A DNA stretch of 33,341 bases from the IMG/VR virus record IMGVR_UViG_3300025592_000041, positions 1 to 33,341 of that record; one strand, 5' to 3'. Every line of letters starts with the position of its first letter. The stretch's first letter is position 1. The DNA is from a virus. Shown here in pieces: positions 2,767-32,616 of the stretch. The notes under the pieces are model-generated. The model saw only the letters and a list, made by a program, of their open reading frames with translations, was not told the origin of the DNA and made no database searches. The position numbers were made by a program, and so were the translations under genes.

Positions 2767-5700
2767 TAATCTTCATCCTCCTACAAAAATCATCAATATC
2801 AATAATATCGTCTGTGCCGTCAACTTTAAATCCCTCATCAGCATTCGATATAGGGGTGGGCTTAACGGCTACCCACGTTCTCTCTATTCTACCAAGTTTC
2901 TGAGCGTATCGTCCGTACATGTGAGGGAAAATTACGATTTTAGAAAACTGTTTTCCATCCCACACGTATACAGTCGCCATTGACTGCCCCTTGGAAGTTT
3001 TAAACTGACGCACATTCACAACATACGCCAGAGCCTTGGAATCATTCATAGACCCCAAGCCATGTTCGTACAGCCATGCATGATCATGATTACATTCAGT
3101 CCGCATCAAGTTCATTAGCTCCACAGCGGCACCGCTCTCATCCTCCACATCGTTATAGCATTGCAGCGAGCGATCTCCAATCAGAGCATAAACGTAGTCG
3201 CGTTTCTTCAATTCAATGTCCAGATTGCTAAACACCGTAAATGAACCAGTAGGGTCTTCAAACTCTATTCGCACATAGGTTGGAGATCTCTTGATGGATC
3301 TCACCACAGCCTTTACAAACGACATAGACATCTCATCCTCATGCACAGACGATGCAGGAGCCAACAGATCATCATGCTTATCATCAATCTCTTGCGCAAT
3401 GGGGAAGCCAAGCAAAGGCATGTAATACTTGCTATGATCATATTCAGATATATGTCCTAGCGATTCCAAAGAGCCAATCTTGTCTAAACTCTCAAGAACA
3501 TTTCTTCTGAGATAACGCTTAGCGCACCTACCCGTAAGTTCATCATAAGAAGAGAAGGGTCGCTTCTGCATAATTTCTTTAATAGCACTCTTGCCCACAC
3601 CGTCAATGTTGGAAAGGCCAAACCTGATTGATCCTTCGCCAGAGTAATCAACAGAAAAGAACTCATCAGAATGATTAACGTCAGGAGGTTTTACCTCAAC
3701 ACCTAGGCGCTTAGCTTCCAGCAGATAGGCAGTAACCTTCTCCCTGCTGCTCTCGTTCGCCAGCAGAGCCCAACAGAATTCCAAAGGATAATTCAGCTTC
3801 AACCACATAGTCTGATACGACAACATTGAATATGCTACAGCGTGTGACTTGTTAAACATATACAAAGCAGAAACCTCAAAATCATCCCACATCTTCTCAG
3901 AAGCCTCAGCGCTCATAACATTATTCTCGACAAACCGCTTGCGATACTGTTCAAACTCATTCATGTCACGCTTCTTGCCAATAATCTTGCGCAGGCTGTC
4001 CGCCTCAGCCCAGCTAAACCCTGCGAGTATCACCACCGCATGCATCAACTGTTCCTGAAATATAAACGTACCATACGTCTCCTCCAAGATAGGCTTCAAT
4101 GAAGAGTGTGGGTACTTAACCCTCTGCTGTCCTGAACGGCGCTTAACAAACTTATCACCCTGCGTCAACAGAGCACCCGGGCGCACCAAAGCATTAGAAA
4201 TAACCAAATCTATAAAGCTCTCACAAGGCATATGCTCCAGCAGACTACGATAGGCACCGGCATCAGCCTGGAACACGCCCGTTGTTTCCGCAGAATCAAA
4301 CTGTGCAAATACAGCGGGGTCATCTAAACTCAAAGACTCCGATTCAACATCCAAGCCACGATGCTCACTAATTTGGCTAAGACAATCTTTGACCACAGAA
4401 ACCGTCTTCAACCCCAAGATATCAATCTTGATTAGACCAACAGCTTCAGCATCATCCATGTCAAATGCCGTTACAACTGTTCTGCCGTCCCCAGAAGCAT
4501 CCTTGCGGGACTCAACCGGACAGACCTCCCACAGAGGCTTAGAAGAGACCACAACACCAGCAGCGTGCATTCCTGCAGTGCGAACACGACCCTCCAGCCT
4601 TTCAGCCACAGGTTTTACATCCACATACTTGTCACAAAACTCACGGACCTTAGGACTACGATTCATATCCTTAAGCGACTCAAACAATTGCGTGATGCCG
4701 TTTATTTCTCTAAACTCTACACCAAAAACTCTGGCCACATCCTTCACAGCAGACTTAGCCTTGAACACACCGAATGCTGAGATAGAAGCCACGTTGTCCG
4801 CCCCCCAACGGTTCTTCAAATACTCCTTAACCTCTCCCCGCCTCTTGTCTTCAAAGTCAAGATCAATATCAGGGTAGTCATTACGATCCGGGTTGATAAA
4901 CCTAGCAAACAACAGATCATACTTGATCGGATCCACAATGGTAATATCCATTAGATACGCCAACAAAGAGCCGCCCACAGAGCCCCGTCCTGGCCCGACA
5001 CCTATGTTGCTATTCCTAGCCCAATTGACGAGATCCCAAATAACCAAGAAGTAATCAGCAAAGCCAGTCTTCTCGATAGTATCTATCTCCTCATTTAAGC
5101 GATCTACATACTCACTCTCGCCAGCAAAGCCTTTACTAGACATCGACATGTTTGCAATCTCACGCAAATACCACACAGAATCAAATTTCTCATCATACTT
5201 AGGCAGCAAATAGCGCTTCTTGGATATCTCAGCATTGCACTTATCAGCAACTTCTAAAGTGTTCTCCAGATGATCACCAAGACCCTTATCTAAAAACAGG
5301 TCCCTGATCTCAGCAGCCCCCATTATATAAGGCTGGATATCATCAAAACGCAGCCTTCTGTCAGGATACATTGTGTTTATCTTGCTAGTAATATCCATGC
5401 CAGTTTTTTTAGCACATCCATTATGCTCCATAGCATAACGCTTAGCAGCAGCATTCATAGAGGGGAACTGAGCCACTGTTAGCAGCACCTCCTCAACTCC
5501 CGCATCACTATGGCTGGGATAATGGCAATCTAAAGTGGGAACTACCTTTTTCCCATAAGAATCTGCGAGCATTATAAGACCCTTATTTATTTCCTCAGGG
5601 TTCCAAGACTGGATCTCAAAATAGAAATCATCACCAAAGATATCAATAAACTTCTCAGATAGACGCTCAGCCCTGCTCCAATTACCTGCTTCGATTGCCT

Positions 5701-6133
5701 TAGCAATAGAGCTCCCCCTGCAGCCAGACAAAGCTATAATGTCGTTATTGACAATACGCTCTAGCATTGGGAAGTCCATGCGTGGCTTATAGTAAAAACC
5801 ATTCATCCACGCCTCGTTGTTCAGCCGGAACAGATTCGACAGCCCCTCATTGTTCTTAGCAAGAAGGATGAGATGGAATCTCTCAGTCTTAGCGTCCACA
5901 GTATCATCAGCCATGTCTGGAGTAAAGTAGGCCTCGATTCCAAATATCGGCTTAACATTCTGCTTAGAACAAGCATCCTGAAACTTTAGAACACCGGCCA
6001 TACTTCCATGATCCGTAATGGCTAGAGAGGTCTGACCATGTGTAGACGCTGTAGCGGCCATCTCCTCTGGAGTAGACATGCCATCAAGCAAAGAATACTC
6101 GCTATGAACATGGAGGTGAACAAAGTCTGTCAT
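2753..6133 (-). CDS. dnaE: DNA polymerase III alpha subunit (DnaE-type, phage-encoded)
   Basis: A 1126-residue C-family replicative polymerase, close to the length of bacterial DnaE. An N-terminal PHP domain starts HLHVHSEYSLLDG (H6, H8, H10) and continues with ITDHGSM (39-44), HLILLAKN, LSGCRGS and DCHYPSHSD (202-210). The palm carries GPGRGSVGGS (379-389) and the catalytic PDIDLDFED (421-429); a third Asp lies in LIKIDILGLKT. A helix-hairpin-helix region and an OB-fold (IEFEDPTGSFTVF) follow. The PHP metal ligands look intact, unlike E. coli DnaE, so built-in 3'-5' proofreading is possible. The ATG overlaps the dCMP deaminase stop (ATGA). No sliding clamp or separate proofreading exonuclease is visible in the window. 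Confidence 0.95.
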   Translation of the reverse strand: MTDFVHLHVHSEYSLLDGMSTPEEMAATASTHGQTSLAITDHGSMAGVLKFQDACSKQNVKPIFGIEAYFTPDMADDTVDAKTERFHLILLAKNNEGLSNLFRLNNEAWMNGFYYKPRMDFPMLERIVNNDIIALSGCRGSSIAKAIEAGNWSRAERLSEKFIDIFGDDFYFEIQSWNPEEINKGLIMLADSYGKKVVPTLDCHYPSHSDAGVEEVLLTVAQFPSMNAAAKRYAMEHNGCAKKTGMDITSKINTMYPDRRLRFDDIQPYIMGAAEIRDLFLDKGLGDHLENTLEVADKCNAEISKKRYLLPKYDEKFDSVWYLREIANMSMSSKGFAGESEYVDRLNEEIDTIEKTGFADYFLVIWDLVNWARNSNIGVGPGRGSVGGSLLAYLMDITIVDPIKYDLLFARFINPDRNDYPDIDLDFEDKRRGEVKEYLKNRWGADNVASISAFGVFKAKSAVKDVARVFGVEFREINGITQLFESLKDMNRSPKVREFCDKYVDVKPVAERLEGRVRTAGMHAAGVVVSSKPLWEVCPVESRKDASGDGRTVVTAFDMDDAEAVGLIKIDILGLKTVSVVKDCLSQISEHRGLDVESESLSLDDPAVFAQFDSAETTGVFQADAGAYRSLLEHMPCESFIDLVISNALVRPGALLTQGDKFVKRRSGQQRVKYPHSSLKPILEETYGTFIFQEQLMHAVVILAGFSWAEADSLRKIIGKKRDMNEFEQYRKRFVENNVMSAEASEKMWDDFEVSALYMFNKSHAVAYSMLSYQTMWLKLNYPLEFCWALLANESSREKVTAYLLEAKRLGVEVKPPDVNHSDEFFSVDYSGEGSIRFGLSNIDGVGKSAIKEIMQKRPFSSYDELTGRCAKRYLRRNVLESLDKIGSLESLGHISEYDHSKYYMPLLGFPIAQEIDDKHDDLLAPASSVHEDEMSMSFVKAVVRSIKRSPTYVRIEFEDPTGSFTVFSNLDIELKKRDYVYALIGDRSLQCYNDVEDESGAAVELMNLMRTECNHDHAWLYEHGLGSMNDSKALAYVVNVRQFKTSKGQSMATVYVWDGKQFSKIVIFPHMYGRYAQKLGRIERTWVAVKPTPISNADEGFKVDGTDDIIDIDDFCRRMKINVSS

Positions 6134-6618
6134 GAGAAGCGAACCAAGTCCGTAAGTTCAACCGGTGAAATAATCCTGACCTCAACGCCACCCTCCTTCA
6201 ACAATGAGATAGCATCTTCATGAGCGTACTTACTCATAGCATACACTTCTTTTACGCCAGCATTAATGAGAGTCCTAGAGCAGAACACACACGGAGTGGT
6301 AGTGAGATACATCCTACAACCATCAGTGCTTACTCCACTCTTGGCTGCATGCAAAATAGCATTCAACTCAGCATGAACAGCCTTACACCTCTCAAAGCTC
6401 TGACCCGACTTCCGTGTCCAGCAACTCTCACCACAATGACTTGTACCTCTAGGAGCACCATTGTATCCAGTGGCCAACACATGATTAGTTTCAGGGTTGA
6501 TAATAACACATCCAACCGACCTGGAGGGACAGGTGGCACGCGTAGCGATAAGCGTAGCCATCCTAAAGAAATACGAATCCCAATCTGGCCTATCGCTCCT
6601 ACTCACTTCAGCACTCAC
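6130..6618 (-). CDS. Deoxycytidylate (dCMP) deaminase
   Basis: A 162-residue zinc-dependent deaminase converting dCMP to dUMP, the precursor for dTTP. The zinc site is complete: His82-Ala-Glu84 (VHAELNAI) and Pro109-Cys110-x2-Cys113 (TTPCVFCSRTL). Further family segments are visible: PSRSVGCVI, ATGYNGAPRG and a Cys/His-rich stretch SHCGESC that in T4-type enzymes binds a second zinc. The start is GTG with GGGAG eight bases upstream, formed by the tail of the nucleotidase gene. It is followed with an ATGA overlap by dnaE, so precursor supply and polymerase are co-translated. No thymidylate synthase gene is visible in the window. Confidence 0.92.
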   Translation of the reverse strand: MSAEVSRSDRPDWDSYFFRMATLIATRATCPSRSVGCVIINPETNHVLATGYNGAPRGTSHCGESCWTRKSGQSFERCKAVHAELNAILHAAKSGVSTDGCRMYLTTTPCVFCSRTLINAGVKEVYAMSKYAHEDAISLLKEGGVEVRIISPVELTDLVRFS

Positions 6619-6622
6619 TTTA

Positions 6623-7213
6623 TTACTCCCAACCTAGTTTGTTAAGCAATTCCTCAAGGTCACTAAAAGAATCTACCCGATTATCAAGCTTGCTATCCGA
6701 CCACCAAGGCTTGTTTAACTCAAAATCCTTATTATAATCACGATTCATCAACACGCCCAACAGCTTTGCCTCATTCACTGCATCCACCTCAAGAGGGTTG
6801 TCTTCAACCATCAAGGCAGTCTCGCCCCAAGGAACATTCTCTTGCATCATCTCTAGTAACTCAGGCTTCCTACCAGCCTCAGTGAACAGGATGTCATGAT
6901 AGGCAATATCCCACTCATCAAGCCACCTCTCAGTTGCATCACGCCACTTAGGATTACGGCTAGTGACAAACATAACATCTACACCAGACATAAAGGCCTT
7001 ATTCACAAAATGCCAAGCATCCTCATAAGGCCTCAAGTTGCGCCAAAATACCTCATCCTGCATTGCCTCATAGACCCATTCGACATCGCGCCAGTGTTTA
7101 CTGTCAAACGAATTGCTAAAATCATATTTATCATGGCCATCACGAATAGCGATGAAGTCTAATTCATAGGCAATATCTGCGACAACACCATCAATGTCTA
7201 AACACAAAAGCAC
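6623..7213 (-). CDS. HAD-superfamily 5'-nucleotidase-like phosphatase
   Basis: A 196-residue protein of the HAD phosphatase fold, resembling 5'(3')-deoxyribonucleotidases. Motif I is LDIDGVVAD at the very N-terminus (nucleophile Asp6, acid/base Asp8); motif II is MFVTSRNP; the C-terminal motif is LMVEDNPLEVDA, carrying the acidic metal ligands. It may dephosphorylate deoxynucleotides, fitting its place before dCMP deaminase, but the substrate cannot be told from sequence. I chose GTG 7213 because GGAAAGGA lies about five bases upstream; the further upstream start at 7228 is a TTG that would include the ribosome binding site. A strong hairpin separates it from the preceding gene. Confidence 0.8.
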   Translation of the reverse strand: MLLCLDIDGVVADIAYELDFIAIRDGHDKYDFSNSFDSKHWRDVEWVYEAMQDEVFWRNLRPYEDAWHFVNKAFMSGVDVMFVTSRNPKWRDATERWLDEWDIAYHDILFTEAGRKPELLEMMQENVPWGETALMVEDNPLEVDAVNEAKLLGVLMNRDYNKDFELNKPWWSDSKLDNRVDSFSDLEELLNKLGWE

Positions 7214-7235
7214 GATATTCCTTTCCAAGCAGAAA

Positions 7236-7257
7236 GGGGAGGGCCGAAGCCCTCCCC
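7236..7257 (-). terminator. Strong hairpin with TTCG tetraloop, possible terminator or mRNA processing element
   Basis: On the minus strand GGGGAGGGC, loop TTCG, GCCCTCCCC form a perfect nine-pair GC-rich stem closed by a C(UUCG)G tetraloop, one of the most stable RNA loops. It lies between the putative ssDNA-binding protein and the nucleotidase gene. Only three T residues follow the stem, so it may be an inefficient terminator lowering downstream expression, or a 3' end stabiliser for the upstream message. Confidence 0.6.
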
Positions 7258-7271
7258 GGATCCACTACCGA

Positions 7272-7925
7272 CTACCAAGCACCACTTCCAGCAGTTTCGC
7301 CCGTGGAATAGAAGGACTCCTGCTGATCGTAGGGGATAACCTTGTAAACCTTGTCCAGATCATGGAGAGGCATAGCTGAAATCTCGTCAGTCTCATCGCC
7401 ACTCTCTAGAGGAATCAGGTTATACGATGTGTCCTGAGGGCCGCTACCAGTACGACTGAACTTATAGTACCGATCAGTGATCGTGCCATACGTCTGCGCA
7501 TACTCAATGATAGTTTGACCAACATGGCGGGGATTTGTAAGAGTAGTCTCAATGATGCGAGACTCCCACTTACCCGGCTCAACCTCAACCGCAAGGTTGA
7601 TAAGCAAATTCTGCCGTGGCTTCCACTTAGGATCAGCAATCGACTGCTCCTGAGCCCAACACCTATAGTTGGTCTCTTCCAAACCCTCCGTGCACATCGC
7701 CTTGTACTTCCAATTAATGGGCGATGTAACAACAGGGACCACAAGTGCGGTACCACGGTCGTCATCGAAGTTAGCGCCATCCTCAGCCAGCTCCTGACGG
7801 AACCTGACCTTATAGCTGTCACCGTCCCTCAAGAAGAGGAACCTCCTGCCGCCTCCTCCAGAGGACTTGGCTGCTTCCTCCCCTACTGTTTTCTTCATAT
7901 CTGCAAGTGTGCTAAAACTCTTCAT
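7272..7925 (-). CDS. Putative single-stranded DNA-binding protein
   Basis: A 217-residue soluble protein. The N-terminus (SFSTLADMKK, then a Gly-rich linker and RRFLFLRDGDSYKVRFR) followed by a beta-rich core with aromatic residues (INWKYKAMC, YRCWAQE, W near K-W-E-S-R, YAQTYGTITDRYYKFSR) resembles OB-fold proteins encoded by phages near primase and polymerase genes. Two Cys in MCTEGLEETNYRCW could be part of a zinc site as in T4 gp32-like proteins, but a full set of ligands is not obvious. The tail is acidic in part (GDETDEIS) but ends in a neutral GSGAW segment. It has a good AGGAG site and stands between the primase gene and a strong hairpin. The function is inferred from composition and position. 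Confidence 0.5.
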   Translation of the reverse strand: MKSFSTLADMKKTVGEEAAKSSGGGGRRFLFLRDGDSYKVRFRQELAEDGANFDDDRGTALVVPVVTSPINWKYKAMCTEGLEETNYRCWAQEQSIADPKWKPRQNLLINLAVEVEPGKWESRIIETTLTNPRHVGQTIIEYAQTYGTITDRYYKFSRTGSGPQDTSYNLIPLESGDETDEISAMPLHDLDKVYKVIPYDQQESFYSTGETAGSGAW

Positions 7926-7939
7926 AGTTATATTTTCTC

Positions 7940-8857
7940 CTAGTTAAATAAAGTTGTTTTCTTATCGGCAATCATCTTGATTATTTGATAAGTATTCATA
8001 TCCCCCGCATCCTTGAAGCCTTCAGGGCATGCGGCCACGAAGACTTCCTTTCGGCGGGTTGTCTCTATTATAGCATCCCTCATGGCGAAACCGGCGGCAT
8101 CAACGTCAGGAATTATTACAATCTGGTCAAAATGCTTATTGAGCAATTGTACCTGCTCCTTTGTGATGACAGCGCCAAGCGTAGCCACGACATTAGGAAA
8201 ACCTGCCTGATGGATCTTCATTGCATCCAGGCTGCCCTCAACGACCATAACTTCATCATGCACCTTAGCCTTATTCAAGTTAAACAGGGTCTTACGCCTC
8301 GGGAAACCTGAGCTATAAAGATACTTCGGAAGCTGTCCAGAGAGGGTCCCCCTGCCAATGAGGCCAATCAGATTAAAGAACTGATCTCTGACTGGAATAA
8401 CCACTCTCTTCTTCACTCTGGAAAACCCTACCTCAAAATCTTTCAGAGTGTCTAGTTCAAAGCCTCGATCAATCATTAGATCAAGAAGCTTCACATCGTC
8501 AGATGTGTAATCTATAGAGCATTGCTGAAGTAGGCGCTCCAAATCATCTACATCGTCATTCTCGCTCAACCCCCTCAATAGTTTGTCAAGATAATCTCCA
8601 CTCATTGTTGTAGTGTCAATGCGTGAATCTTCGTTAAGGAGTAGTTTCTGGAGGAGCCTTACACCTCCCCGCTTTTCACAATCAGGATTGAAGCATTGCC
8701 ACAAACCCGTGTGCCTGTTGATAGAGAATGACGGAGTGTTCATATTGCTATGAAACGGGCAATAAGTTACAAGCTCATCGCCAACCTCACTAACTATCGA
8801 AACAGCGCCTCTATGCAGTATATCACGGATAGAAGCCTCAAGCGATTGCGTAGACAC
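7940..8857 (-). CDS. DnaG-type DNA primase (CHC2 zinc finger plus Toprim)
   Basis: A protein of about 305 residues that makes RNA primers for replication. A CHC2-type zinc finger is near the N-terminus (CPFH, then CFNPDC, with the PSFSINRHTGLWQC strand between). The Toprim domain shows MVVEGSLDAMKI with the conserved Glu, ATLGA, and IIPDVDAAG with the DxD metal site. It is shorter than bacterial DnaG and lacks the C-terminal helicase-binding domain. The start is uncertain: an ATG at 8899 would overlap the upstream gene by 62 bases, so I place it at GTG 8857, just before the family's first helix; TTG 8866 is also possible. It follows the DnaB-like helicase and one small gene. Confidence 0.88.
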   Translation of the reverse strand: MSTQSLEASIRDILHRGAVSIVSEVGDELVTYCPFHSNMNTPSFSINRHTGLWQCFNPDCEKRGGVRLLQKLLLNEDSRIDTTTMSGDYLDKLLRGLSENDDVDDLERLLQQCSIDYTSDDVKLLDLMIDRGFELDTLKDFEVGFSRVKKRVVIPVRDQFFNLIGLIGRGTLSGQLPKYLYSSGFPRRKTLFNLNKAKVHDEVMVVEGSLDAMKIHQAGFPNVVATLGAVITKEQVQLLNKHFDQIVIIPDVDAAGFAMRDAIIETTRRKEVFVAACPEGFKDAGDMNTYQIIKMIADKKTTLFN

Positions 8858-9032
8858 AGTAATCAAACATCTCACTCTCAGGATCGTAAGACCATTCAAA
8901 CTTACAATCAGAAACAGTCATGCCCTCCTTGCCAATCTCCTCAACAATACAATCAGACATCCAACCCTTAAGTCTAATGATTGTTTCAACGTCCTTAGCT
9001 CTGCCATCGTATTTTCTTATAACTTTAGACAC
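8838..9032 (-). CDS. Small hypothetical protein between helicase and primase
   Basis: A 64-residue protein of unknown function. It has a basic N-terminus (SKVIRKYDGRAKD), a central helix (VETIIRLKGWMSDCIVEEI) and a C-terminal aromatic, acidic stretch (KFEWSYDPESEMFDYCVYAIA). The start is GTG 9032, with a near-consensus GGGAGGAG about seven bases upstream; an upstream ATG at 9053 lacks such a site. It overlaps the helicase stop by eight bases and the primase start by about 20, so it is translated with both. A helper of the helicase-primase pair would fit its place, but nothing in the sequence proves it. Confidence 0.65.
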   Translation of the reverse strand: MSKVIRKYDGRAKDVETIIRLKGWMSDCIVEEIGKEGMTVSDCKFEWSYDPESEMFDYCVYAIA

Positions 9033-10242
9033 CCCACTCCTCCCGCCATTCACCAGTATCCAAATCCCAATTCAAATAGAAGCCAAACTGAGCGCAGCGC
9101 CTGACCTTTCTGCTCACCACTTGGAAGATGCTAGAGTCAACCTCTCTGTGGAGAGACAGAACCAAGTCGGCATCGTAAGCTAACTGCTTGCTCCAAGCGA
9201 CCTCTTCCAACTCAGGTGGACGCTCAGAATGTCCATCTTGCATCGTCACGGCAGCAACATCAATAATGGCCACACCGTTCTTTACGGCCATTCTCTTAAA
9301 AGCCTTAGAGAGATTCTTAGCCTTCTCAGTTTCAGACTTAGCACCACTAGCATCATCAAACAGGCCGTGATAATCAAGAATAACAAGATCTGGATTATAC
9401 TGATCTATCTTAGCCTGGACAAGGTTCTGATCACACACATCCAGCCCCTCGGAGGTGATTAGATAGAACGGATGCATATTCTCAAACGTATCTTCTGCCC
9501 ACTTCTTATACGAATCTACAACCTCATCATTAGGTCGGACAAGATCAGAGTGTGTAAAGAACCCCTTACCGTTATTTAATATGGTATCAATACGCTGAGC
9601 CTCTTGCTGCTTGTTCATTTCAAGCGAAATAATCATAGGCCTATAACCAGCCAGCCAAGCATTGACAGCAAACAGCCTTGTTATGAACGACTTCCCCACA
9701 CCCGTCCATCCCAACAATACAATAAAATCACCCGGCATCCACCCACCAAACTCAGAATCTATAACACTAATATCGGTGGGTATACCAAGAGTTTTCTCAT
9801 CAGAATCATTCACACGATTAGCAAGATCTTTAGCCCTGTCTCTCCACTCACTAACAAGATCAGTATCTTTAAGACTAGTCGCCTCCTTAACCAGCCTGTT
9901 AGCATTAGACAGCAGATAGCTAAGAGCAATCTTAGGACCACCAGATTTCAACATCTCATGCGTACTGGCGATAAGAGAGCGGGTATTTGCAGACATGGAC
10001 TCCTGACGAGCATTATCAATATAATACTGCAGAGGCTCCGTGGTGGTTAGATACTCAAAGTCAGGAAAGTGGGACTTAACTTCCTGCTTCGCAGGAATCT
10101 TCTTATGCTTATCATAGTGGGAAGTTATAAAGCTCCATACGTCCTGATAGTTGATGAAAACATCGCCCACCCCCTCATTCTGGCACTCAATATAGTCACC
10201 AGTATCAATAACGGCATTAAGTAGTTTAACTTCATAATTCAC
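9025..10242 (-). CDS. Replicative DNA helicase (DnaB/gp41-like)
   Basis: A 405-residue RecA-fold helicase that would unwind DNA at the fork. Walker A is GWTGVGKS (178-185); the DnaB motif SLEM follows at 206-209; Walker B is LVILDYHGLF (286-295); a downstream loop with SKQLAYDADLVLSLHRE carries the DnaB-type motif near the arginine finger. The N-terminal 130 residues are helical and only loosely like the DnaB N-domain. GTG 10242 overlaps the upstream stop, giving GTGA. Neighbouring genes are a small unknown protein upstream that could help loading, and a DnaG-type primase downstream; together with DnaE these supply most fork functions. Confidence 0.9.
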   Translation of the reverse strand: MNYEVKLLNAVIDTGDYIECQNEGVGDVFINYQDVWSFITSHYDKHKKIPAKQEVKSHFPDFEYLTTTEPLQYYIDNARQESMSANTRSLIASTHEMLKSGGPKIALSYLLSNANRLVKEATSLKDTDLVSEWRDRAKDLANRVNDSDEKTLGIPTDISVIDSEFGGWMPGDFIVLLGWTGVGKSFITRLFAVNAWLAGYRPMIISLEMNKQQEAQRIDTILNNGKGFFTHSDLVRPNDEVVDSYKKWAEDTFENMHPFYLITSEGLDVCDQNLVQAKIDQYNPDLVILDYHGLFDDASGAKSETEKAKNLSKAFKRMAVKNGVAIIDVAAVTMQDGHSERPPELEEVAWSKQLAYDADLVLSLHREVDSSIFQVVSRKVRRCAQFGFYLNWDLDTGEWREEWGV

Positions 10243-10553
10243 TTGCGCTTGTCCATTCTCTCGCGTGTCTTTTCCACGATCTCCAAGAACCTTTCTCTAG
10301 ACTTACGTTCAGCAACAGCCTTCCCAATAATAGAAGGAGCATCCATAGCAAAGCTGAACACCATAATTGGGCTAGAGGCCTTCCTCACATACGCCCCAGC
10401 AGTGGTGGCAACATCTTCGTACCCGTAGGCATCTATCAGACTATCAGCCACCGCCTCCTCCCTGACAGCATCAGGAAGGAAAAACTTACCCTCCTCTTTT
10501 GAGAGCTTTTTCAATAACTGAATCAGGTCCGCTCCAGTTTGACTCTGAGGCAT
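10239..10553 (-). CDS. Hypothetical protein upstream of helicase
   Basis: A 104-residue protein not recognised. The start is clear: AGGAGG lies seven bases before ATG 10553. The N-terminus has a helical segment (TGADLIQLLKKLSKEEGKFF), the middle is hydrophobic and Ala-rich (about residues 45-75), and the C-terminus is strongly charged (RKSRERFLEIVEKTRERMDKR), likely a long helix. There are no cysteines or catalytic motifs. The gene ends in an overlap with the helicase start and begins within the 3' end of the WhiB-like gene. A helicase loader or replication accessory role is possible from position only. Confidence 0.65.
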   Translation of the reverse strand: MPQSQTGADLIQLLKKLSKEEGKFFLPDAVREEAVADSLIDAYGYEDVATTAGAYVRKASSPIMVFSFAMDAPSIIGKAVAERKSRERFLEIVEKTRERMDKRK

Positions 10554-10782
10554 CTTCAATCCTCCTCCATGCAGCCATAAGCATATCGTACTTTGATAAA
10601 CCAGCGCTCACACCGACAAAAAAAGGATCGCTCGTAGCGGCAATTAAACATGGCAGTTTCACCTTACAATCATTGCAAATAGTCTTCGCATATTGCGTTT
10701 CATCATAATCATAACTAGTCCAATAATGCCTATGCCCGCTGTTAAAGCACAGCGCACCTTGCGACCAATCATGACTATCCAT
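10486..10782 (-). CDS. WhiB-like Fe-S transcription regulator
   Basis: A 98-residue protein matching the actinobacterial WhiB layout. Four cysteines, C12, C36, C39 and C45, give C-x23-C-x2-C-x5-C, the last three in ICNDCKVKLPCLIAA, which parallels the WhiB C..C.V...C..yA block. They are followed by a turn FFVGVSAG in the position of the family's GVWGG motif and a basic helix (MAAWRR). WhiB proteins bind a [4Fe-4S] cluster and act with the host primary sigma factor; phage copies such as WhiBTM2 alter host gene expression. ATG 10782 is preceded by AAGGG; an upstream start at 10815 would lie deep in the previous gene. This is the best single marker of an actinobacterial host. Confidence 0.82.
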   Translation of the reverse strand: MDSHDWSQGALCFNSGHRHYWTSYDYDETQYAKTICNDCKVKLPCLIAATSDPFFVGVSAGLSKYDMLMAAWRRIEDASESNWSGPDSVIEKALKRGG

Positions 10783-10975
10783 CGCCCTTAGCAATCTCAG
10801 TAAGCTTGGCCTCAATCTGGCTGTCTACAGTATCCCAGAGCTTCTCCCACAACTTATCATCACCAGGGTCGCCAGACAACTTAGCACCAGCGTCAAGACG
10901 CATAGACTCATAGTTGCCCAGATTCTTGGTTACACCAATAGAAACCCAAACATGATTATCATCATCAGCTTTCAT
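10775..10975 (-). CDS. Small conserved phage protein with GNYES motif
   Basis: A 66-residue protein. The N-terminal half reads like a beta-hairpin (HVWVSIGVTKNLGNYES, then MRLDAGAKL), and the C-terminal half is an amphipathic helix (KLWEKLWDTVDSQIEAKLTEI). Small proteins with a similar G-N-(Y/F)-E-(S/N) segment occur in many phages, often near recombination and replication genes, with no firm function that I can name. AAAGGTG precedes the ATG, which overlaps the stop of the MerR-like gene as ATGA; its own stop overlaps the WhiB-like gene by eight bases. It is probably expressed with both regulators. Confidence 0.72.
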   Translation of the reverse strand: MKADDDNHVWVSIGVTKNLGNYESMRLDAGAKLSGDPGDDKLWEKLWDTVDSQIEAKLTEIAKGDG

Positions 10976-21822: not shown

Positions 21823-22322
21823 TATAGACCCTCAAATGTAATAGAAACATCGTAATAATAACAGCCGTTGTTCTCATCCCTGCGCAGCAACGATTCATTG
21901 TAGCTAACCACCCTAGACATCTTGCTAGTATAATCAAAATCAGACTGATCTGAAGTATAGTCAGGTAGGTGCTCTACAAGAACATTCTTATCTAGAGTAG
22001 CGAGAGAGTACAAAAAATCCCGCCCCTCTCGACCATCAATTGTCATGCTGCTTGGACCGGGCAGATATGTGAAATTTAAAGTGTGCTTCTCAGGAGTACG
22101 AACATAATAACGCTTACTAGAGCCAGAAGCCAAAGCAACATTCTTAGCAATAGAACCAGACTCAGATGCAAACCGTCGGTTATGAGCAGTAATGTCACGA
22201 CCATTAGCCCTAAAAAGAGACTTGGGGATCTGCTTAGCCCCACCCTTGGCTTTATCAACAGAGTCTATAGCGTCCACAGAAGCGGCAGAGTGTATGAAAG
22301 CACTAGCAGCAACTAAGGCCAT
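21822..22322 (-). CDS. Distal tail protein, paralog A
   Basis: A 166-residue protein. The C-terminal half contains KHTLNFTYLPGPSS, DGREGRDFLYSLATLDKNVLV and YNESLLRRDENNGCYYYDVS, each matching a segment at the same place in the next gene. The N-terminal half differs, with an Ala/Ser-rich start and a basic region (QIPKSLFRANGRDITAHNRRF). ATG 22322 overlaps the tape measure stop (ATGA). Its place directly after the tape measure gene is where a Dit-like distal tail protein is usually encoded; the exact function is inferred. Confidence 0.7.
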   Translation of the reverse strand: MALVAASAFIHSAASVDAIDSVDKAKGGAKQIPKSLFRANGRDITAHNRRFASESGSIAKNVALASGSSKRYYVRTPEKHTLNFTYLPGPSSMTIDGREGRDFLYSLATLDKNVLVEHLPDYTSDQSDFDYTSKMSRVVSYNESLLRRDENNGCYYYDVSITFEGL

Positions 22323-25300
22323 CAGACACGCCCCCTTCTATTGTTATCCGCCATAGAGCTAATTCTGCGAGAGTCTAGCCCCTTGCTACGTTCGTGGCGA
22401 GGTGCAACGCTAATATTGTAGTCCTGCATCATACCTTCAAACCATTCCGGCTGTCCAATAAAGTTCTCAACGTAGATGTTAACTCCTCCAGAGTCACCAC
22501 CGCCGTCATAATTACGCTCACTGTTCATAGCCTCCAGGTTAGACAAGCCAACATTTTGAACAGCCTTAGCGTTCATCACATACTCGCCACCGTGAGCCAT
22601 GATCGGGACCATAGCAGAACGGAAGCCATTCAGATAACGACCATATTGTGCCTTAATAGCGCCACCATTGAATCTAGAACCATAATAATCGCTGTACTCA
22701 TCCGAGTCTACTCCAGAGAAACGAGGGTCGTTGGGATCATAACCATACCTGACGCCTGTACCGCCACCACTACCGACAACCCCGGGGCCACCAAATCCAC
22801 CCGTTCCACCAAAGTTAGCCCCAGGTGCCATTATGTATGGATCATCCTGGTACAGCCCCTCATACGGATCAACCCTGAATTCCGAACTTGGTGGCAGCAC
22901 TGTATCCTGCCTAAGCTTATCAGCCAAGAATAATTCAGGATTAACCATGACACTCTGCACCGTGTCAGTCATGGCATCTTCTATTAAGCCCTGAGCGACT
23001 TTAAGCTGTTCAATAATGTGAGGAATAGCCTTGTCCATAAATCCGGCCATCCATCCCTGGGCAATCAAGTCCCACTCCAAGGCGCCCTTCCACTCTTCGT
23101 TAACAAGATCAAATATTCTCTGGAACGGTGTTACTGGATCAAACTCAAGGAACGCCAACAGCCAATCTGACACAGCCTTAGATATTGTCGTTGCCACCTT
23201 CGTTGTTTCTTCATCGACAGCGACAGTCACGCCTGTGAACGCATTTGTAAACGTCACTTGCGCACCGTCAGACACTATGCCAATACTTCTAAACAGCTCA
23301 TTAAACCGACTAGTCAGTTCACTATCAATTATCGTAGCAAATTTTTGCAACGATACTGCTGCACCGCCTTCAGGACCGAACGCCTCTCCCATATGGTCCG
23401 CTAAGCCTGAGGTTATCTCAGATAGCTTAGCCTGAAGTTCTGCATCAGTTGCAGGAAGATCCTCAAGCATCGAATCGAAGCTGCCCTTAAGCCTATCACG
23501 AACATCCTTGAGACGATCCTTCTCGACCTTCTGCTCATCTTTAATCGTATCAATTGCAGCCCGACGCTTCTGATCAAGAAGGTACGAAGCCCGCCCCCCT
23601 GCTAGACCAGACAGAGACTCTTGCGACTTAGTTTTTGTAAGCCCAAACTGTACCGACAAATTGCGTGCATCTTCAACGCGCCCCTCATACAACGCAAGAG
23701 CCCTGTTGCGCACAAAATTCTCAGAATCGAGAGCCATCTTGTTTATGAGAGAACGACGATCACTCTCGTATTTAATTGTCCGAGTAAGTTCCTTCTCAGC
23801 TTCAACAACCTTTTGAATCACATTAATTCGTGTATCATAAGCAGACAGATAGACCTTTGTATATGCATCAAACTTCTTCATGCTGAGATCCATTAGATTA
23901 CGAAGTTCCTTTATCAAACGAGACTTAACCTTGCCTACGAAGGTATTAAATGCGTCTTGCATAGCCTCTGAAACTTCCTCTGCTATGCCTTCGCCTATCG
24001 GACCAGTGTCAACATCCGCAAAAACTCGATCCAAAAGATCGGGGAGCTTGTCATCAATATCGTCAGCTAAATTATTGCCCAGTCCAAACTCGCCCCCCAG
24101 AATACCCTCAAGAACGCCCCGGACAGCCCCTGCAGCATCAGCGCCCGCCACAGCATCTATACCATCAATAAGCTTCTCTAAGGCAAAATCTACACCATCA
24201 CCAATCGCACCAACAGCTATACCCAGCTTGTCCTGAATTAGTCCATTGAGACCCGCGCGGCCAGCCTGAATAACGTCAAACAGCGTATCAGCCTTCTCTT
24301 TGACATCATCTAAGCTCTCAGGAATCCTAAAGTCTATACTCCAACCCATACCAATCTTATCTAAAGCCCCGCCGAGAGTGTCCAGTGCGCTAAGAATTTT
24401 ATTAATAAGGGGCCTAGAGGTCTCTACAGCCCACAATATTGCCTCAACGAGCTTTCTCATTGCACCAATCACAAATGCTAGAACTCCATCAACAACCTTC
24501 CAGATCCCCCTGAATACCGGGACTATTGCATGCTCTAGAAGCCCAAAGAATGCTTTCCCGACCCACTGCAGAACACTAGCTATGACTTTAGCCTCCATCA
24601 AGAGCATGTCGATCCAAAACTCCATGATCTTGACAATCCAATACACCACAGAAGAAACAGTTTTGGAAATCTTCTCCCAATTCTTTCTCATCCAACCCAG
24701 AGCGGCACCTACGCCATCAGCAACTTTCTTAACCACAGTCAAAAAGAACCTAATAATAGGGGGTAGAAATGTCTGCATTACATTACGGACAACTTTAGCA
24801 AAGCCTAAGAATATGTTAGCGACTCCTTGTATAGTTCGACCAACGGCGTCCATGCCGCTAGCCGCTTCCTTGGAGCCATCTTTTGCCGTCTTGCCAAAGA
24901 TTTCACCAAAGATTTCAAAGAAAACTTTACCAATAGACAAGAAGGCTTCCTTCAGCACAGACAATGCTTTACTGAAGGTTCCAAACGAATTCTTACCAGC
25001 CTCTTTAAACATATCTAGATTAGATACCACATATGCCACAGCAGACCCAATAATCAGGAAGATTGCCAATATGCCTGAAGTCATCATGGCAAATTTAATA
25101 GCCTTGATAGCACCCTTAAACGCCATTCCAAACACTCCAGCGGAAATTATAGCCTGAACTCTAATCATTTTGAATACGGCGCTCATAGAGAATCTCAAGT
25201 TATCCATCTTCCCAGCAGCACTGTAGGCAGCGAGCGAGAATTTACTAGCAAAATGATCCGCTACGCCAGTCAACTTGCGACTCCAAGCTACAGCCATCTC

Positions 25301-27757
25301 AGCAGGATTAGGGAACTTAGCGCCAGTGAATCTGCCACCAACACGTTTCATTATTGTTGGCTGTGGGGCTATCTGCCCTACTCTTGCACTAGCAATATGC
25401 CTCATAGAGACTCTACTCTTAGCAGCGCCCGCCTTAATTCGCGCCATAAGAGTATCAAACTGTCTCTCTGTCTTGCGGAACATTCTTGTCATGCTGCCTT
25501 CAGCCTTGACAGTAGCCGACTGTGCGCTGGCTGCAACACTAGCCGAGCCCTTAGCGGCACTAGCGGACATTGAAGTAGAAGCAGCAGCAACAGATTTTGA
25601 CCCCTGGACAGCTACTGTCCGTGTTTGAACGATAGCTTGTTGGTATGGCGATGCTGCAATGTGAGGATCTTGCTTAAGCAGAGCAACGGAGCGCGCCCAC
25701 TTGTTGCCCATATGAGTAAAGTCAGATGAAGCTTGAACCGCCTTTCTACCCACCTGCACGAGGCCTGTTCCCAACCGTCGCAAGCGAGGCAGAGGCTCGC
25801 CTGCAGCCTGCTTAGCAAGCAGCATACTTACAGTTATAGACTTCATCTTGGGCAAGAATGCGGACATCACACGACCCAAGCTACCCACGATATTGCCCAA
25901 TTGACCCATAGAGAATCCAACAGGGCCAATAACGGCCAGCAACCCAGTGAATGCCATAATAGCCTTCTTTGTAGTCGGGCTTAAATTAGCAACCCATTTA
26001 GTGAAATTTTTAATGGCAGGAATGATAGTTTTTTCAATAGCGTCGAAGAACGCCGTCCCCATTTCCTGCATGGCAATCTTGATATCATTACGCAATCTTT
26101 GCATCACAGCGGCTGGGCCAGCCATCACCAGATTAAACTCATCAGCGAATGTCTCACCAGCTTGTGTTGCACCCATAAAGTCAATCACTAGAGACTTCAA
26201 TGGTGGAGACAAACCCTGCAGAGCTGTGGAAAGAATTCCAGCCGATGTGGTATTCTTATCAAAACCCTGACTAGAACTCCCCAGACCCTGATCGAAGGCT
26301 ATAATATCATCTCTAAAGCTTTGAATCGCTTCCGGTGAAGAAAAGGCGCTGCTGATCTTAGCCTCAAGCTCTTCTAAGTTCTCAACTCCTCCAATAAGAT
26401 CTGCCAGACCCACAGCTCCTCCAGATCGCAATTGTTGCTGCATCGTTTTAACAGATTGAGTGAAGCCCTCCATGCCGCGCATGGCTGCAAACATACGGCT
26501 TGCTTGGCGCTTACCAACAAGCTCGCCAAGATAAATAACAGCAGCCTTCTTCCCAGCAGCCTTGTCGATGATATTCAAGTTCTCAGCCAGATTGAATAGA
26601 AGCATATTGCCCATACCAAGATCAACATTGAATTCTGACCACTTAGAGCCCATCTCTTCAGCCATATCACGAACCTTGGCTGTGGGGTTAATCATCCTCT
26701 GAAGAGAGAATTTCAAAGCGTGGGCAGATTCGGTAGCATCAAGACCAACTTCCTTCATGTTAGCCATAACGCCAGACAAGAATACTAAGTCCACACCCGC
26801 CGCAGCAGCGGCAGGAGAAACCTGAGGAAAAGCTTCTGCAAGATCTTTCAACGATAGAGCAGTGGTATTCTCCATCATGTTAAACTTAGCTAACAATCCA
26901 GCGACTTTAGCTATCCTGTCCCCGGCAGGGTCCATCTGCTTAACCATGCCTGCAAGGTTAGCAATGAAGTCTCTGCCCACCTCAACAGATACCTCTCCGA
27001 CCTTCTCCAATTCAAGAGCCAGGCCAGCATACTCTACAGCGAGATCAGAGAGTTTATCTTTCTGTCCGCCACCAAGCAGAGCCTTACCCATTTGGGCGAA
27101 GTCAGACGTAAGACCGGCAACAATGGACGTAGACGCACCTATAGCGGAAGACAAACTGAGCATCTTCTTCTTGAGATCAGCAGCCGCCCCGCCAGAGATA
27201 TCAAGAATTTTCTTCGTTCTGACGAACTGTCTCTCAAAGCTCTCAAACGATTGCATCATAAAGCGTAATGCAATGCCAATAGGAGCAGTTATACCAACCA
27301 TCATCTGACGCCCCAACCACTGCATATTCTTAGCAGCCGAAGTAGCATTCTGAGAGACGCGCTTAAGGTCAGTACCAAACTTACGGAGAGGCACCTTCCT
27401 CATGTCCTTTCTAAGCTTTACTAGCTCTCTGGAGTAGGCACGATAGGCCTGAGTGCCACGCTGAGTTTGTTGACGCTGAAGCTTAAGCGTCCCAAGCTGG
27501 CCCTTAATTTCACGCCGATAAATCTTCTGGTTTCTAACCAGCATCTTGACGCTTTGAGCCTCGCCATGAAATATCTTTTGAAGCTCTTTAGCAGAGCCAG
27601 TAAGTCGAGGTATTTGAGATCCGAGGCTGTGCGAAGCGTCTTCAAGAACGACAATGCCATTCTTAAGCTTCATCACCTGAGCTTGCAGTTGACCAAGCTG
27701 ATTCAGCCCGCCAACATTAACTCTAAATTCTAGATTTGCTCCGCCTGTTTCTGCCAT
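22322..27757 (-). CDS. Tape measure protein
   Basis: At 1811 residues this is the longest gene of the window and sets the tail length. The N-terminus is helical and charged, then a TP901-type tape measure core spans about 150-480 (MQWLGRQMMVGITAPIGIAL, FERQFVRTKKIL, FPQVSPAAAAAGVDLVFLSG). Hydrophobic segments occur near 600 (AFTGLLAVIGPVGFSMGQLG), 885-915 (MTSGILAIFLIIGSAVAYVV) and 1035-1110 (WIVKIMEFWIDMLLMEAKVI and beyond), probably for membrane passage of DNA. A long coiled-coil region lies near 1300-1450, and the C-terminus is Gly-rich. No lytic transglycosylase or peptidase motif was recognised. It follows the frameshifted chaperone, the usual order. Confidence 0.93.
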   Translation of the reverse strand: MAETGGANLEFRVNVGGLNQLGQLQAQVMKLKNGIVVLEDASHSLGSQIPRLTGSAKELQKIFHGEAQSVKMLVRNQKIYRREIKGQLGTLKLQRQQTQRGTQAYRAYSRELVKLRKDMRKVPLRKFGTDLKRVSQNATSAAKNMQWLGRQMMVGITAPIGIALRFMMQSFESFERQFVRTKKILDISGGAAADLKKKMLSLSSAIGASTSIVAGLTSDFAQMGKALLGGGQKDKLSDLAVEYAGLALELEKVGEVSVEVGRDFIANLAGMVKQMDPAGDRIAKVAGLLAKFNMMENTTALSLKDLAEAFPQVSPAAAAAGVDLVFLSGVMANMKEVGLDATESAHALKFSLQRMINPTAKVRDMAEEMGSKWSEFNVDLGMGNMLLFNLAENLNIIDKAAGKKAAVIYLGELVGKRQASRMFAAMRGMEGFTQSVKTMQQQLRSGGAVGLADLIGGVENLEELEAKISSAFSSPEAIQSFRDDIIAFDQGLGSSSQGFDKNTTSAGILSTALQGLSPPLKSLVIDFMGATQAGETFADEFNLVMAGPAAVMQRLRNDIKIAMQEMGTAFFDAIEKTIIPAIKNFTKWVANLSPTTKKAIMAFTGLLAVIGPVGFSMGQLGNIVGSLGRVMSAFLPKMKSITVSMLLAKQAAGEPLPRLRRLGTGLVQVGRKAVQASSDFTHMGNKWARSVALLKQDPHIAASPYQQAIVQTRTVAVQGSKSVAAASTSMSASAAKGSASVAASAQSATVKAEGSMTRMFRKTERQFDTLMARIKAGAAKSRVSMRHIASARVGQIAPQPTIMKRVGGRFTGAKFPNPAEMAVAWSRKLTGVADHFASKFSLAAYSAAGKMDNLRFSMSAVFKMIRVQAIISAGVFGMAFKGAIKAIKFAMMTSGILAIFLIIGSAVAYVVSNLDMFKEAGKNSFGTFSKALSVLKEAFLSIGKVFFEIFGEIFGKTAKDGSKEAASGMDAVGRTIQGVANIFLGFAKVVRNVMQTFLPPIIRFFLTVVKKVADGVGAALGWMRKNWEKISKTVSSVVYWIVKIMEFWIDMLLMEAKVIASVLQWVGKAFFGLLEHAIVPVFRGIWKVVDGVLAFVIGAMRKLVEAILWAVETSRPLINKILSALDTLGGALDKIGMGWSIDFRIPESLDDVKEKADTLFDVIQAGRAGLNGLIQDKLGIAVGAIGDGVDFALEKLIDGIDAVAGADAAGAVRGVLEGILGGEFGLGNNLADDIDDKLPDLLDRVFADVDTGPIGEGIAEEVSEAMQDAFNTFVGKVKSRLIKELRNLMDLSMKKFDAYTKVYLSAYDTRINVIQKVVEAEKELTRTIKYESDRRSLINKMALDSENFVRNRALALYEGRVEDARNLSVQFGLTKTKSQESLSGLAGGRASYLLDQKRRAAIDTIKDEQKVEKDRLKDVRDRLKGSFDSMLEDLPATDAELQAKLSEITSGLADHMGEAFGPEGGAAVSLQKFATIIDSELTSRFNELFRSIGIVSDGAQVTFTNAFTGVTVAVDEETTKVATTISKAVSDWLLAFLEFDPVTPFQRIFDLVNEEWKGALEWDLIAQGWMAGFMDKAIPHIIEQLKVAQGLIEDAMTDTVQSVMVNPELFLADKLRQDTVLPPSSEFRVDPYEGLYQDDPYIMAPGANFGGTGGFGGPGVVGSGGGTGVRYGYDPNDPRFSGVDSDEYSDYYGSRFNGGAIKAQYGRYLNGFRSAMVPIMAHGGEYVMNAKAVQNVGLSNLEAMNSERNYDGGGDSGGVNIYVENFIGQPEWFEGMMQDYNISVAPRHERSKGLDSRRISSMADNNRRGRV

Positions 27758-27783: not shown

Positions 27784-28445
27784 TCATTGGCTTTCATAAC
27801 CAAGCCCGATGGGTAGATGTGTAATCGTAAACTCGCTGTCCAGAGCATTGCCTGAAGAGGAACCCGACGAAGTATCTAAATCAGTCATCGACTGATACTC
27901 ACCTATTCCCTCACCAGTAACAACCTGAGCAAGCAGATTATAGTCTGCGTGCTTCTTGCTACGAACCATATCAACAATATGGATCAGCTCTGGAAATGTT
28001 AATATGTTTTCTATATCGTCAATGCTTTTCCAAACACCGACAGAAACGAAAGCCTCTAAAATAAGGTGGTGGAGAGGGAAGGTACTCCATTGAAATGGTG
28101 TACCATCACTTCCCTCTCCACCTACTCGTTTGGGGCTTCGTCAACCTCATTGCCCATGCTTGCAGCCATTAAAGAAGCAAAACATCGCAAATCTAAAGCG
28201 TCCTCAAGAGCATCATTATCATTAGCCAAATCAGGATCAACCTTCTGTAATGCAATAGATGATGCGAGGACCATATTATCAATGTCCTCATCGGATAGAC
28301 CGGCATCATCCTCGACATTAAGCTTATCTGCTACGGCCATAAACTTCCGTAACTGCCTAATGGTCAAAGGATGAATCGTCCTTTCCACACCATCTGCAAA
28401 GATGATATCCTGACCTCTCCTGAGATCTTTGTTCGTTGCAGCCAT
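27784..28445 (-). CDS. Tail assembly chaperone GT fusion, made by -1 frameshift
   Basis: Ribosomes slipping back one base at CCCAAAC (28128-28134) leave the G frame six bases before its stop and read a second frame to 27784, giving a product of about 220 residues. I translated the -1 frame through the hairpin: it is open from the slip site to the stop, with ILEAFVSVGVWKSIDDIENI and FPELIHIVDMVRSKKHADYN followed by a Ser-rich tail. As in lambda gpG/gpGT, G binds the tape measure and the T extension recruits tail tube subunits. Stop-free extension, slippery site and hairpin together make this call strong; the efficiency is unknown. Confidence 0.85.
28068..28134 (-). promoter_or_regulatory. Programmed -1 ribosomal frameshift signal
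   Basis: The minus strand holds the heptamer CCCAAAC (28128-28134), read in the zero frame as C CCA AAC, the X XXY YYZ form. After a five-base spacer comes GGTGGAGAGGGAAG (28109-28122), which pairs perfectly over 14 bases with 28068-28081. The loop region adds a nested stem, GTAC with GTAC and CCAT with ATGG. The zero-frame stop TAG (28122-28124) lies at the base of the stem. Slip site, spacing and stem all fit a -1 frameshift element. Confidence 0.88.
28122..28445 (-). CDS. Tail assembly chaperone G
   Basis: A 107-residue acidic protein. FADGVERTIHPLTIRQLRKF (about 16-35) is the usual start of small phage tail chaperones, followed by an acidic helical region (DDAGLSDEDIDN, DPDLANDNDALEDALD). 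It lies between the major tail tube and tape measure genes, the position of lambda G. The gene ends six bases after a slippery CCCAAAC, so most ribosomes make G and some make the longer GT. The leader has AGGTGTGAAA, also found before the tape measure gene. Confidence 0.85.
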   Translation of the reverse strand: MAATNKDLRRGQDIIFADGVERTIHPLTIRQLRKFMAVADKLNVEDDAGLSDEDIDNMVLASSIALQKVDPDLANDNDALEDALDLRCFASLMAASMGNEVDEAPNE

Positions 28446-28525: not shown

Positions 28526-29125
28526 TTAGGCGTTTGCGGTTACATCAATAATCTTGCCATATTCATAGTTGGTATCCGAGCTATTCGGCAGAATACGAAA
28601 TTCTACCGGAAATGCTACAGCCTCAGCTCGCTTCATTGAATGAGAGCTTGCTGAATACGATACAGCGCGCTTCGTTTGAAAGATGCGCTTTAGCGTAGTG
28701 CTAGCAGTCGTGCCGGGAGCGTTACCAGTAATCTGAAGTACCTTCTCATACGGGTAAACGTTCTCAATACCAAACTTAAATGTCCGCGTAGCAGATGCGC
28801 CCGACACCGTATCCAAATCGGTTACGATATCAGCTGTTGTACTGTCTGTCGCGGCAACCGTTGATGAATAGTTCCATGCGTGGGCAAGGTTCTGAAGCGT
28901 TGCTTCGGCAAGGGTCGTCTTGACCATCACCTTAACCCTCGACTGGATGACCTTGGCAGCATCGCCAAACTGATCAACTTCTACGTCAACCATGTCCGGC
29001 TCCCATGATAGCTCAACGCCATCCATAGTAGCACCAACGTCAGTTAGGGACGCAAAAGCCGTTCCCGACTCGCCCAATTCGACGGTAGCCTCACCAACGA
29101 CAATATTTGCAGTTGTAATTGCCAT
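28526..29125 (-). CDS. Major tail (tube) protein
   Basis: A 199-residue protein rich in Thr, Val and Ala with alternating strands. MAITTANIVVGEATVELGES, then LTDVGATMDGVELSWEPD and VDVEVDQFGDAAKVIQSRVKV, follow the pattern of siphovirus tail tube proteins, where a DG-x-E/T-x-S segment and a long loop precede the tube strands. It should polymerise as hexameric rings into the tail tube. It has the strongest ribosome binding site of the region (AGGAGGAAAATA), as expected for an abundant virion protein, and lies between the tail terminator and tail chaperone genes. No Ig-like decoration domain is obvious. Confidence 0.82.
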   Translation of the reverse strand: MAITTANIVVGEATVELGESGTAFASLTDVGATMDGVELSWEPDMVDVEVDQFGDAAKVIQSRVKVMVKTTLAEATLQNLAHAWNYSSTVAATDSTTADIVTDLDTVSGASATRTFKFGIENVYPYEKVLQITGNAPGTTASTTLKRIFQTKRAVSYSASSHSMKRAEAVAFPVEFRILPNSSDTNYEYGKIIDVTANA

Positions 29126-31616: not shown

Positions 31617-31886
31617 CTAGCCGTCTGCCTCTATGCATATTATACATTCGCCTGGGCATTCATCAGCAGAATCAATAACATTCTCTAGCTCACCATCAGG
31701 AACTGTAGCAAGTCCCTGAGCCATCTGATACACCGGCTTGGTTTGATAATTAGGACCAAAGATAGTATCCCAATGCACCTCTTTCACATAGGCCAATCCA
31801 TCATCATGCATTTGGAATATAGCCGGTGCAATCTCTGCGCACAGACCGTCACCAGTACACAAGTCCTGGTCAATCCATACCTTCAT
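31617..31886 (-). CDS. Single-cluster ferredoxin with Asp in the cluster motif
   Basis: An 89-residue ferredoxin of the 3Fe-4S/4Fe-4S type common in Actinobacteria. It opens VWIDQDLCTGDGLCAEIAPA, with C10-x2-D13-x2-C16, and the downstream ligand is C77-Pro (DECPGECIICIE), the same order as in P450-linked ferredoxins. Asp replaces the second Cys, as in 3Fe-4S proteins and in Pyrococcus furiosus ferredoxin, where Asp ligates a 4Fe-4S cluster. C81 and C84 are extra. An insert of about 30 residues (40-70) separates the halves. ATG 31886 is chosen because GGGGG lies six bases before it. It would carry single electrons; the partner enzyme is not in the window. Confidence 0.85.
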   Translation of the reverse strand: MKVWIDQDLCTGDGLCAEIAPAIFQMHDDGLAYVKEVHWDTIFGPNYQTKPVYQMAQGLATVPDGELENVIDSADECPGECIICIEADG

Positions 31887-32616
31887 TAAAACCCCCAGTA
31901 ATTTCATCAATCAAACGCAATTCTAGACATTCATTTGAACTCAACCACCAGTCCTTGCGATGCCAGTTTCTTTTGACCTTTTGAGGTGTAAGTTTAGAAT
32001 TAGCGCAAAAGATAGAAACGATTCTCCCCTCTATCCTTTTGATCCATTCAACCTTGTCTTCGATCTCAAAAGTTTTTCCAATCGCACCAAAAGCTGCCCT
32101 GTGAATCATCATCCAAGCCTCTGCAGACATCCATCTGTGATCGCCAGCCTGAACCAATACGCCACCCATGCTTGCAGCCATACCAGTAGCACCAGTGGTT
32201 ATATGATGCCCTGCATTAGAAAGAGACCTTATATAATCGAATAATGCAAGCCCAGGAATTACAGCCCCTCCCGGTGAATCGAAGATTATCTCTATATCGC
32301 ACCCTGGATCGAGACGAGACCATTGCGTTAACTTCTTTACACATCTATTGACACTATCAGAATCTACTTCACCAATAAACCGGTAGATATGATGGAATTC
32401 ATCTCCAGCGGCACGATTATCAGCAGCATATTCAGCCTGCGATACCTCAATGTGCTCCAAACGAACACTCAATTCTGCCTGGTCAGCCTCAGCATTAGCC
32501 TTACGAGCCTCAGCCAGAGCCTTCTCAGCTTCAGCGATGGCTTTCTTTGCTTCAGCTTCAGACTTGGCAACATTCGCACTTCTCTCTTCATTAGAGAGAC
32601 CATCTTCATCGTTCAT
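31870..32616 (-). CDS. ClpP-like serine peptidase with N-terminal coiled coil
   Basis: A 248-residue protein. Residues about 10-60 are an Ala/Glu/Lys-rich coiled coil (SEAEAKKAIAEAEKALAEAR). The rest is a ClpP/crotonase-fold peptidase: FDSPGGAVIPG (oxyanion region), GMAASMGG with nucleophile Ser149, MMIHRA with His172, and RKDWWLSSNECLELRLID with Asp222, which matches the Asp of the ClpP motif RDxFMSxxEA. The full triad suggests an active enzyme. Phages use such proteins for prohead maturation, but no scaffold or capsid gene follows; it may instead act with or against host Clp ATPases. AGGCGGAGG precedes the ATG. It overlaps the ferredoxin gene by 17 bases. Confidence 0.83.
   Translation of the reverse strand: MNDEDGLSNEERSANVAKSEAEAKKAIAEAEKALAEARKANAEADQAELSVRLEHIEVSQAEYAADNRAAGDEFHHIYRFIGEVDSDSVNRCVKKLTQWSRLDPGCDIEIIFDSPGGAVIPGLALFDYIRSLSNAGHHITTGATGMAASMGGVLVQAGDHRWMSAEAWMMIHRAAFGAIGKTFEIEDKVEWIKRIEGRIVSIFCANSKLTPQKVKRNWHRKDWWLSSNECLELRLIDEITGGFNEGMD

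Follow-up and report, generated by a model that had tools for sequence, protein, structure and literature searches.

Near the 3' end of a small gene in a viral tail gene region, the heptanucleotide CCCAAAC is followed closely by an unusually long hairpin. The locus raises the question of whether ribosomes are programmed to slip there and what the hairpin contributes. The DNA analysed (the window) was IMG/VR record IMGVR_UViG_3300025592_000041, positions 1–33,341, a stretch of 33,341 nt. We consider it highly probable (about 0.93) that the locus is a programmed −1 ribosomal frameshift site making the tail assembly chaperones G and GT. Frameshifting of the phage lambda G/GT type is known; this member of the type has an unusually strong, structurally conserved putative stimulator. 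The analysis shows anatomy, reading frame, structure statistics, conservation and homology; slippage and its level, the stimulatory roles of the hairpin and of an upstream GAGG, and the function of GT are inferred. Coordinates of the features are given in Table 1.

Table 1. Features of the putative frameshift site and of the neighbouring tail genes, in window positions.
Feature	Position	Strand	Evidence
Major tail protein-like gene, upstream of G	28526..29125	(-)	phrog_2175, phrog_885
Gene G, tail assembly chaperone, zero-frame product, 107 aa	28122..28445	(-)	ORF, phrog_10504, hhalign, predicted fold
SD-like GAGG, possible upstream stimulator, 10 nt 5' of heptamer	28145..28148	(-)	anti-SD duplex; conservation
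Slippery heptamer C_CCA_AAC	28128..28134	(-)	in frame; invariant across clade
5-nt spacer GAGTA	28123..28127	(-)	length constant in all clade members, sequence variable
Stem 5' arm GGTGGAGAGGGAAG	28109..28122	(-)	sequence, folding, conserved pairing
Apical extension GGTAC/GTACC + CCAT/ATGG, UUUC loop	28081..28104	(-)	folding; re-paired in relatives
Stem 3' arm CTTCCCTCTCCACC	28068..28081	(-)	sequence, folding, conserved pairing
T segment, -1 frame, 114 aa	27784..28128	(-)	open frame bounded by stops; hhalign
Tail tape measure protein gene, 1811 aa, directly downstream of T	22322..27757	(-)	PHROG tape measure families, PF10145

The G and T frames and the tail genes around them

The product of G matches phrog_10504 (E = 2e-8), and its profile was aligned with those of Streptomyces phage tail assembly chaperones using hhalign (probability 98.7, E = 4e-16). 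The predicted fold of G (mean pLDDT 77.6) matches a tail assembly chaperone of an uncultured phage in BFVD with 53% identity, a TM score of about 0.9 and an E value of 8e-12. Searches of the PDB with G by sequence or by fold gave no meaningful match, and no curated family was matched in Pfam. The T segment matches −1 frame segments of Streptomyces phages (hhalign probability 98.7, E = 4e-16). No match to the window G was found in INPHARED using tblastn, and the Streptomyces phages were reached only via the more distant relative L010, the major tail protein and the T segment. The genes lie in the order major tail protein, G, T and tape measure, with the G and T frames overlapping. The major tail protein-like product shares 37% identity with Streptomyces phage major tail proteins.

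Stops bound the T frame on its upstream side, and since no start codon occurs close to where it begins (its first listed ATG ORF starts at 27969), T is unlikely to be translated by reinitiation at a start of its own. A −1 slip would yield a G–T fusion of 220 residues that ends at 27784, with the predicted junction peptide ...EVDEAPN-RVGGEGSDGTPFQW... The gene order, the homology of G and T to annotated Streptomyces phage chaperones, the conservation of site, spacer and hairpin in six distinct phages and the comparison with other chaperone sites (see below) all argue for the tail-chaperone −1 frameshift proposed in the first-pass annotation.

Slip site, spacer and predicted hairpin

The 3' end of the G ORF reads ...GAA GCC CCA AAC GAG TAG, which places CCCAAAC in the frame C_CCA_AAC, as had been claimed for it. 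The five-base spacer described earlier was found as GAGTA. Since the zero-frame stop TAG occupies 28124–28122, its G is the first paired base of the stem, and the reported position of the stop at the stem base is correct. The whole window was scanned for in-frame heptamers and 23 were found across its 35 ORFs. The hairpin at the right place after CCCAAAC has an energy of −34.5 kcal/mol, compared with −18.5 kcal/mol for the next best, and the open −1 frame after it runs for 114 codons, compared with 20 for the next longest. CCCAAAC is the only one of the 23 to combine a strong, well placed hairpin with a long open −1 frame. Among the papers searched, none was found to report CCCAAAC in phage tail genes. 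In Escherichia coli, slippage is weaker at heterogeneous ZZN codons, AAC among them, and heptamers of the AAC type are expected to slip less than those of the AAG type (PMC4066793). By these rules, which may not be those of the host, only modest slippage is expected of C_CCA_AAC, less than of C_CCA_AAG.

The two arms of the stem form 14 perfect pairs. Above them, GGTAC/GTACC (28104–28100/28085–28081) and CCAT/ATGG (28098–28095/28090–28087) form the apical stems. Residue C28081 has two possible partners, one in the outer helix and one in the apical helix; the minimum free energy (MFE) fold contains 13 + 5 + 4 pairs (22 in total), in which one of the 14 outer pairs is traded for a coaxial apical helix. 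The perfect 14-pair stem with nested GTAC/GTAC and CCAT/ATGG of the first-pass annotation is therefore present as drawn, but the MFE fold departs from it by this one pair. The folding of 28050–28140 on the minus strand that the annotation had proposed was run and gave −42.8 kcal/mol (z = −6.3 versus dinucleotide shuffles). No other 55-nt hairpin on either strand of the 33-kb window is as stable as this one (−34.5 kcal/mol), and none of 2000 T-frame synonymous recodings matched it. The very strong predicted structure claimed earlier is borne out by these values. No match was found in Rfam at gathering thresholds.

Conservation and alternative roles of the hairpin

The close relatives in IMG/VR are L003, L004/L009, L005, L006, L007 and L008, in which G is 75–100% identical to that of the window; G and T of L003 are identical to their window counterparts. 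CCCAAAC, the 5-nt spacer and the long hairpin are kept in five other distinct phages, making six with the window. In L008 the stop is shifted to directly after the heptamer, and the stem still starts 5 nt downstream. A scan of genome_contigs returned no relatives. An extra contig from a pattern search with the heptamer and 5' arm (L044) was rejected as a chance match in an unrelated gene.

All positions of the outer stem are paired in the relatives, mostly as invariant pairs, with some G–U replacements and a single pair in which both partners differ. The apical helix is re-paired with differing sequences (GGTAC/GTACC, GGTGT/ACACC, GTCGC/GCGAC and TGAG/CTCA; Fisher combined p = 0.003 versus dinucleotide shuffles of the apical segments), a pattern that favours selection on RNA structure. 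The apical loop is short in the window and differs among the relatives. Each of the seven clade sequences folds better than its T-frame synonymous recodings (z = −2.9 to −4.8), of which 0–7 per 1000 were as stable. Judging by the apical re-pairing and this folding beyond synonymous recodings, the RNA hairpin seems to be under selection within the clade.

The hairpin might alternatively be a by-product of coding the T motifs GGEG and FPLHH, with no RNA role. The outer arms do encode conserved residues and most of their pairs are invariant; because the mostly invariant letters of the lower stem also encode FPLHH, part of their conservation is uninformative about RNA. This explanation is barely credible, however, given how rarely recodings of the window or of any clade sequence reach the same stability, given that the apical segment conserves its pairing across the relatives and not its protein sequence, and given that L010 has a related T without such a hairpin.

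It is also very improbable that the slip site works and the hairpin is an mRNA stability element, a transcription terminator or an attenuator placed between the chaperone genes and the tape measure gene. A very stable inverted repeat does lie inside a tail operon, with a U-rich stretch (UUAUUUU) a few nucleotides past the stem, but the stem base is not directly followed by a U tract, and the hairpin keeps a distance of 5 nt from the heptamer in every clade member. Termination at the hairpin would also remove T and the tape measure gene, because it sits inside T, which is translated. The arrangement of an intrinsic terminator, in which a G+C-rich hairpin is followed directly by a U tract, was not found here, and the terminator scan does not report the hairpin.

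In a further structure, the hairpin would extend over the slip site by pairing CCAAAC with GUUUUGG; the site would then be masked, and frameshifting could become switchable. Pairing between the slip site and the 3' flank is predicted by RNAalifold, and in L007 and L008 it surpasses that of 99% of synonymous recodings; in the window, however, the pairing is worse than in most recodings (fraction 0.72), which leaves the extension unsupported there, and it is average in L004 and weakly better in L005/L006 (0.23). A ribosome on the slip site would in any case melt those pairs. We regard this structure as very improbable.

The GAGG upstream of the heptamer forms an anti-SD duplex of −6.3 kcal/mol, within the best 2.5% of positions in the region from G through T to the tape measure gene. 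It is present in all six distinct relatives, where it is also coding, at a spacing of 10 nt in five and of 7 nt in L008; the reported range for SD stimulators of −1 frameshifting is 9–14 nt upstream (PMC5009743). GAGG contains a glutamate codon common in these genes, and since GAG is the preferred one (186 versus 100), the evidence for GAGG as an upstream frameshift stimulator is suggestive only.

Outside the clade, slip-prone sequences were found at the homologous proline codon: CCCAAAT in L010, CCCAAAC in L036, and CCCAAAT or CCCGGAA in Streptomyces phages. These relatives, together with L025–L035, have no hairpin in the corresponding position; folding versus synonymous recodings gave z = −0.9 for L010 and +0.3 for L036. 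The hairpin is thus dispensable for the wider family, and it looks like the property of one clade, gained there or lost elsewhere. The first-pass annotation had named related phages lacking both heptamer and stem as evidence against the signal; the retention of both in six distinct phages speaks in its favour, whereas the absence of the hairpin from distant relatives does not.

At the homologous slip position, near the end of the G homologues of L025–L035 (e.g. L026 around 2288), the sequence is C_CCU_UCC or C_CCU_UCU, which is non-canonical with respect to X_XXY_YYZ. The open −1 frame of L026 starts exactly at CCC, which makes slippage of the P-site tetramer (C_CCU) likely there. For Streptomyces phage Yaboi, the annotation of the homologous chaperone gives a joined frameshift product. 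In Annadreamy and Wakanda (L037 and L039), T is annotated as a separate hypothetical protein that begins downstream of the G stop; no joined product is given, and the open −1 frame extends back to CCCAAAT in G.

Proposed mechanism and comparison with known systems

In the proposed mechanism, most ribosomes would terminate at TAG and release G. A minority would be held at C_CCA_AAC by the hairpin, which starts 5 nt downstream, at the mRNA entry, and pairing of GAGG with the 16S anti-SD would probably assist the slip. The tRNA-Pro and tRNA-Asn on CCA AAC would re-pair on CCC AAA in a stimulated tandem slip, and the slipped ribosomes would continue in the −1 frame across the hairpin and so make GT. 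As in lambda, GT should bridge the tape measure and the major tail protein. By ribosome geometry, non-slipping ribosomes too must open part of the stem to place UAG in the A site. The earlier suggestion that stem opening is tied to slipping or stopping holds only to the extent that these ribosomes also open part of it.

The locus resembles lambda G/GT in gene order, in a −1 frameshift near the end of G, in the position of G and GT upstream of the tape measure, and in a presumed low level of GT. It differs in the heptamer (C_CCA_AAC here, G_GGA_AAG in lambda), in the 14-bp hairpin 5 nt downstream and in the distance from slip to stop (3 nt here, 15 nt in lambda). In a small comparison of chaperone sites, hairpin energies at +3 to +9 were −34.5 kcal/mol for the window, −17.0 for lambda, −12.1 for P2, −5.1 for TP901-1 and −28.3 for D29 (68% G+C); no canonical site was found by the filter used in HK97, phiC31, Predator or TM4. 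Most of the compared sites have weaker hairpins, in agreement with the earlier remark on a very strong predicted structure here. The Streptomyces Stanwilliamsviridae chaperones (Annadreamy, Yaboi, Wakanda) have homologous G and T and slip at the homologous proline codon, but their slip lies 36–51 nt before the stop and lacks a comparable hairpin.

With GAGG 10 nt upstream, the heptamer and the hairpin, the layout resembles E. coli dnaX or IS911-type signals, which have an SD-like element about 10 nt upstream, a heptamer and a stem-loop 5–8 nt downstream (PMC5009743, PMC4066793). The stem-loop starts 5 nt 3' of the slip site in all clade members, within that range. The gene and its function are unrelated to those of dnaX and IS911, and CCCAAAC replaces AAAAAAG; the dnaX stem is also shorter than the stem here.

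Since AAC is a weak slipper in E. coli, the strong hairpin may serve to lift slippage at a weak heptamer to the few per cent that are usual, and not to produce very efficient frameshifting. The high efficiency or regulation suggested in the first-pass annotation is speculative. It is unlikely that the composite hairpin of about 22 pairs, kept by structure and not by sequence, drives GT far above the lambda-type few per cent or makes its synthesis condition-dependent, perhaps to offset the weak heptamer or to suit a very long tail (1811-residue tape measure). Stimulators of tail-chaperone frameshifting are often unclear; here a hairpin with phylogenetic support, a fixed spacer and a candidate SD element surround one heptamer. 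The family forms a natural series, with the same slip codon accompanied by the hairpin in the clade and lacking it in L010, L036 and the Streptomyces phages, in which the gain of a stimulator, and any resetting of the GT/G ratio, can be tested directly.

Elsewhere in the window, a gene for a WhiB-family transcription factor (PF02467) at 10486–10815 indicates an actinobacterial host, and the source phage probably infects an actinobacterium. A replication block encoding a RecA-like protein, DNA polymerase III alpha, a primase (Toprim/DnaG) and a DnaB-like helicase occupies 1849–10242. A small 4Fe-4S ferredoxin (PF13459) is encoded at 31617–31910, beside a ClpP-like protease gene in the structural region.
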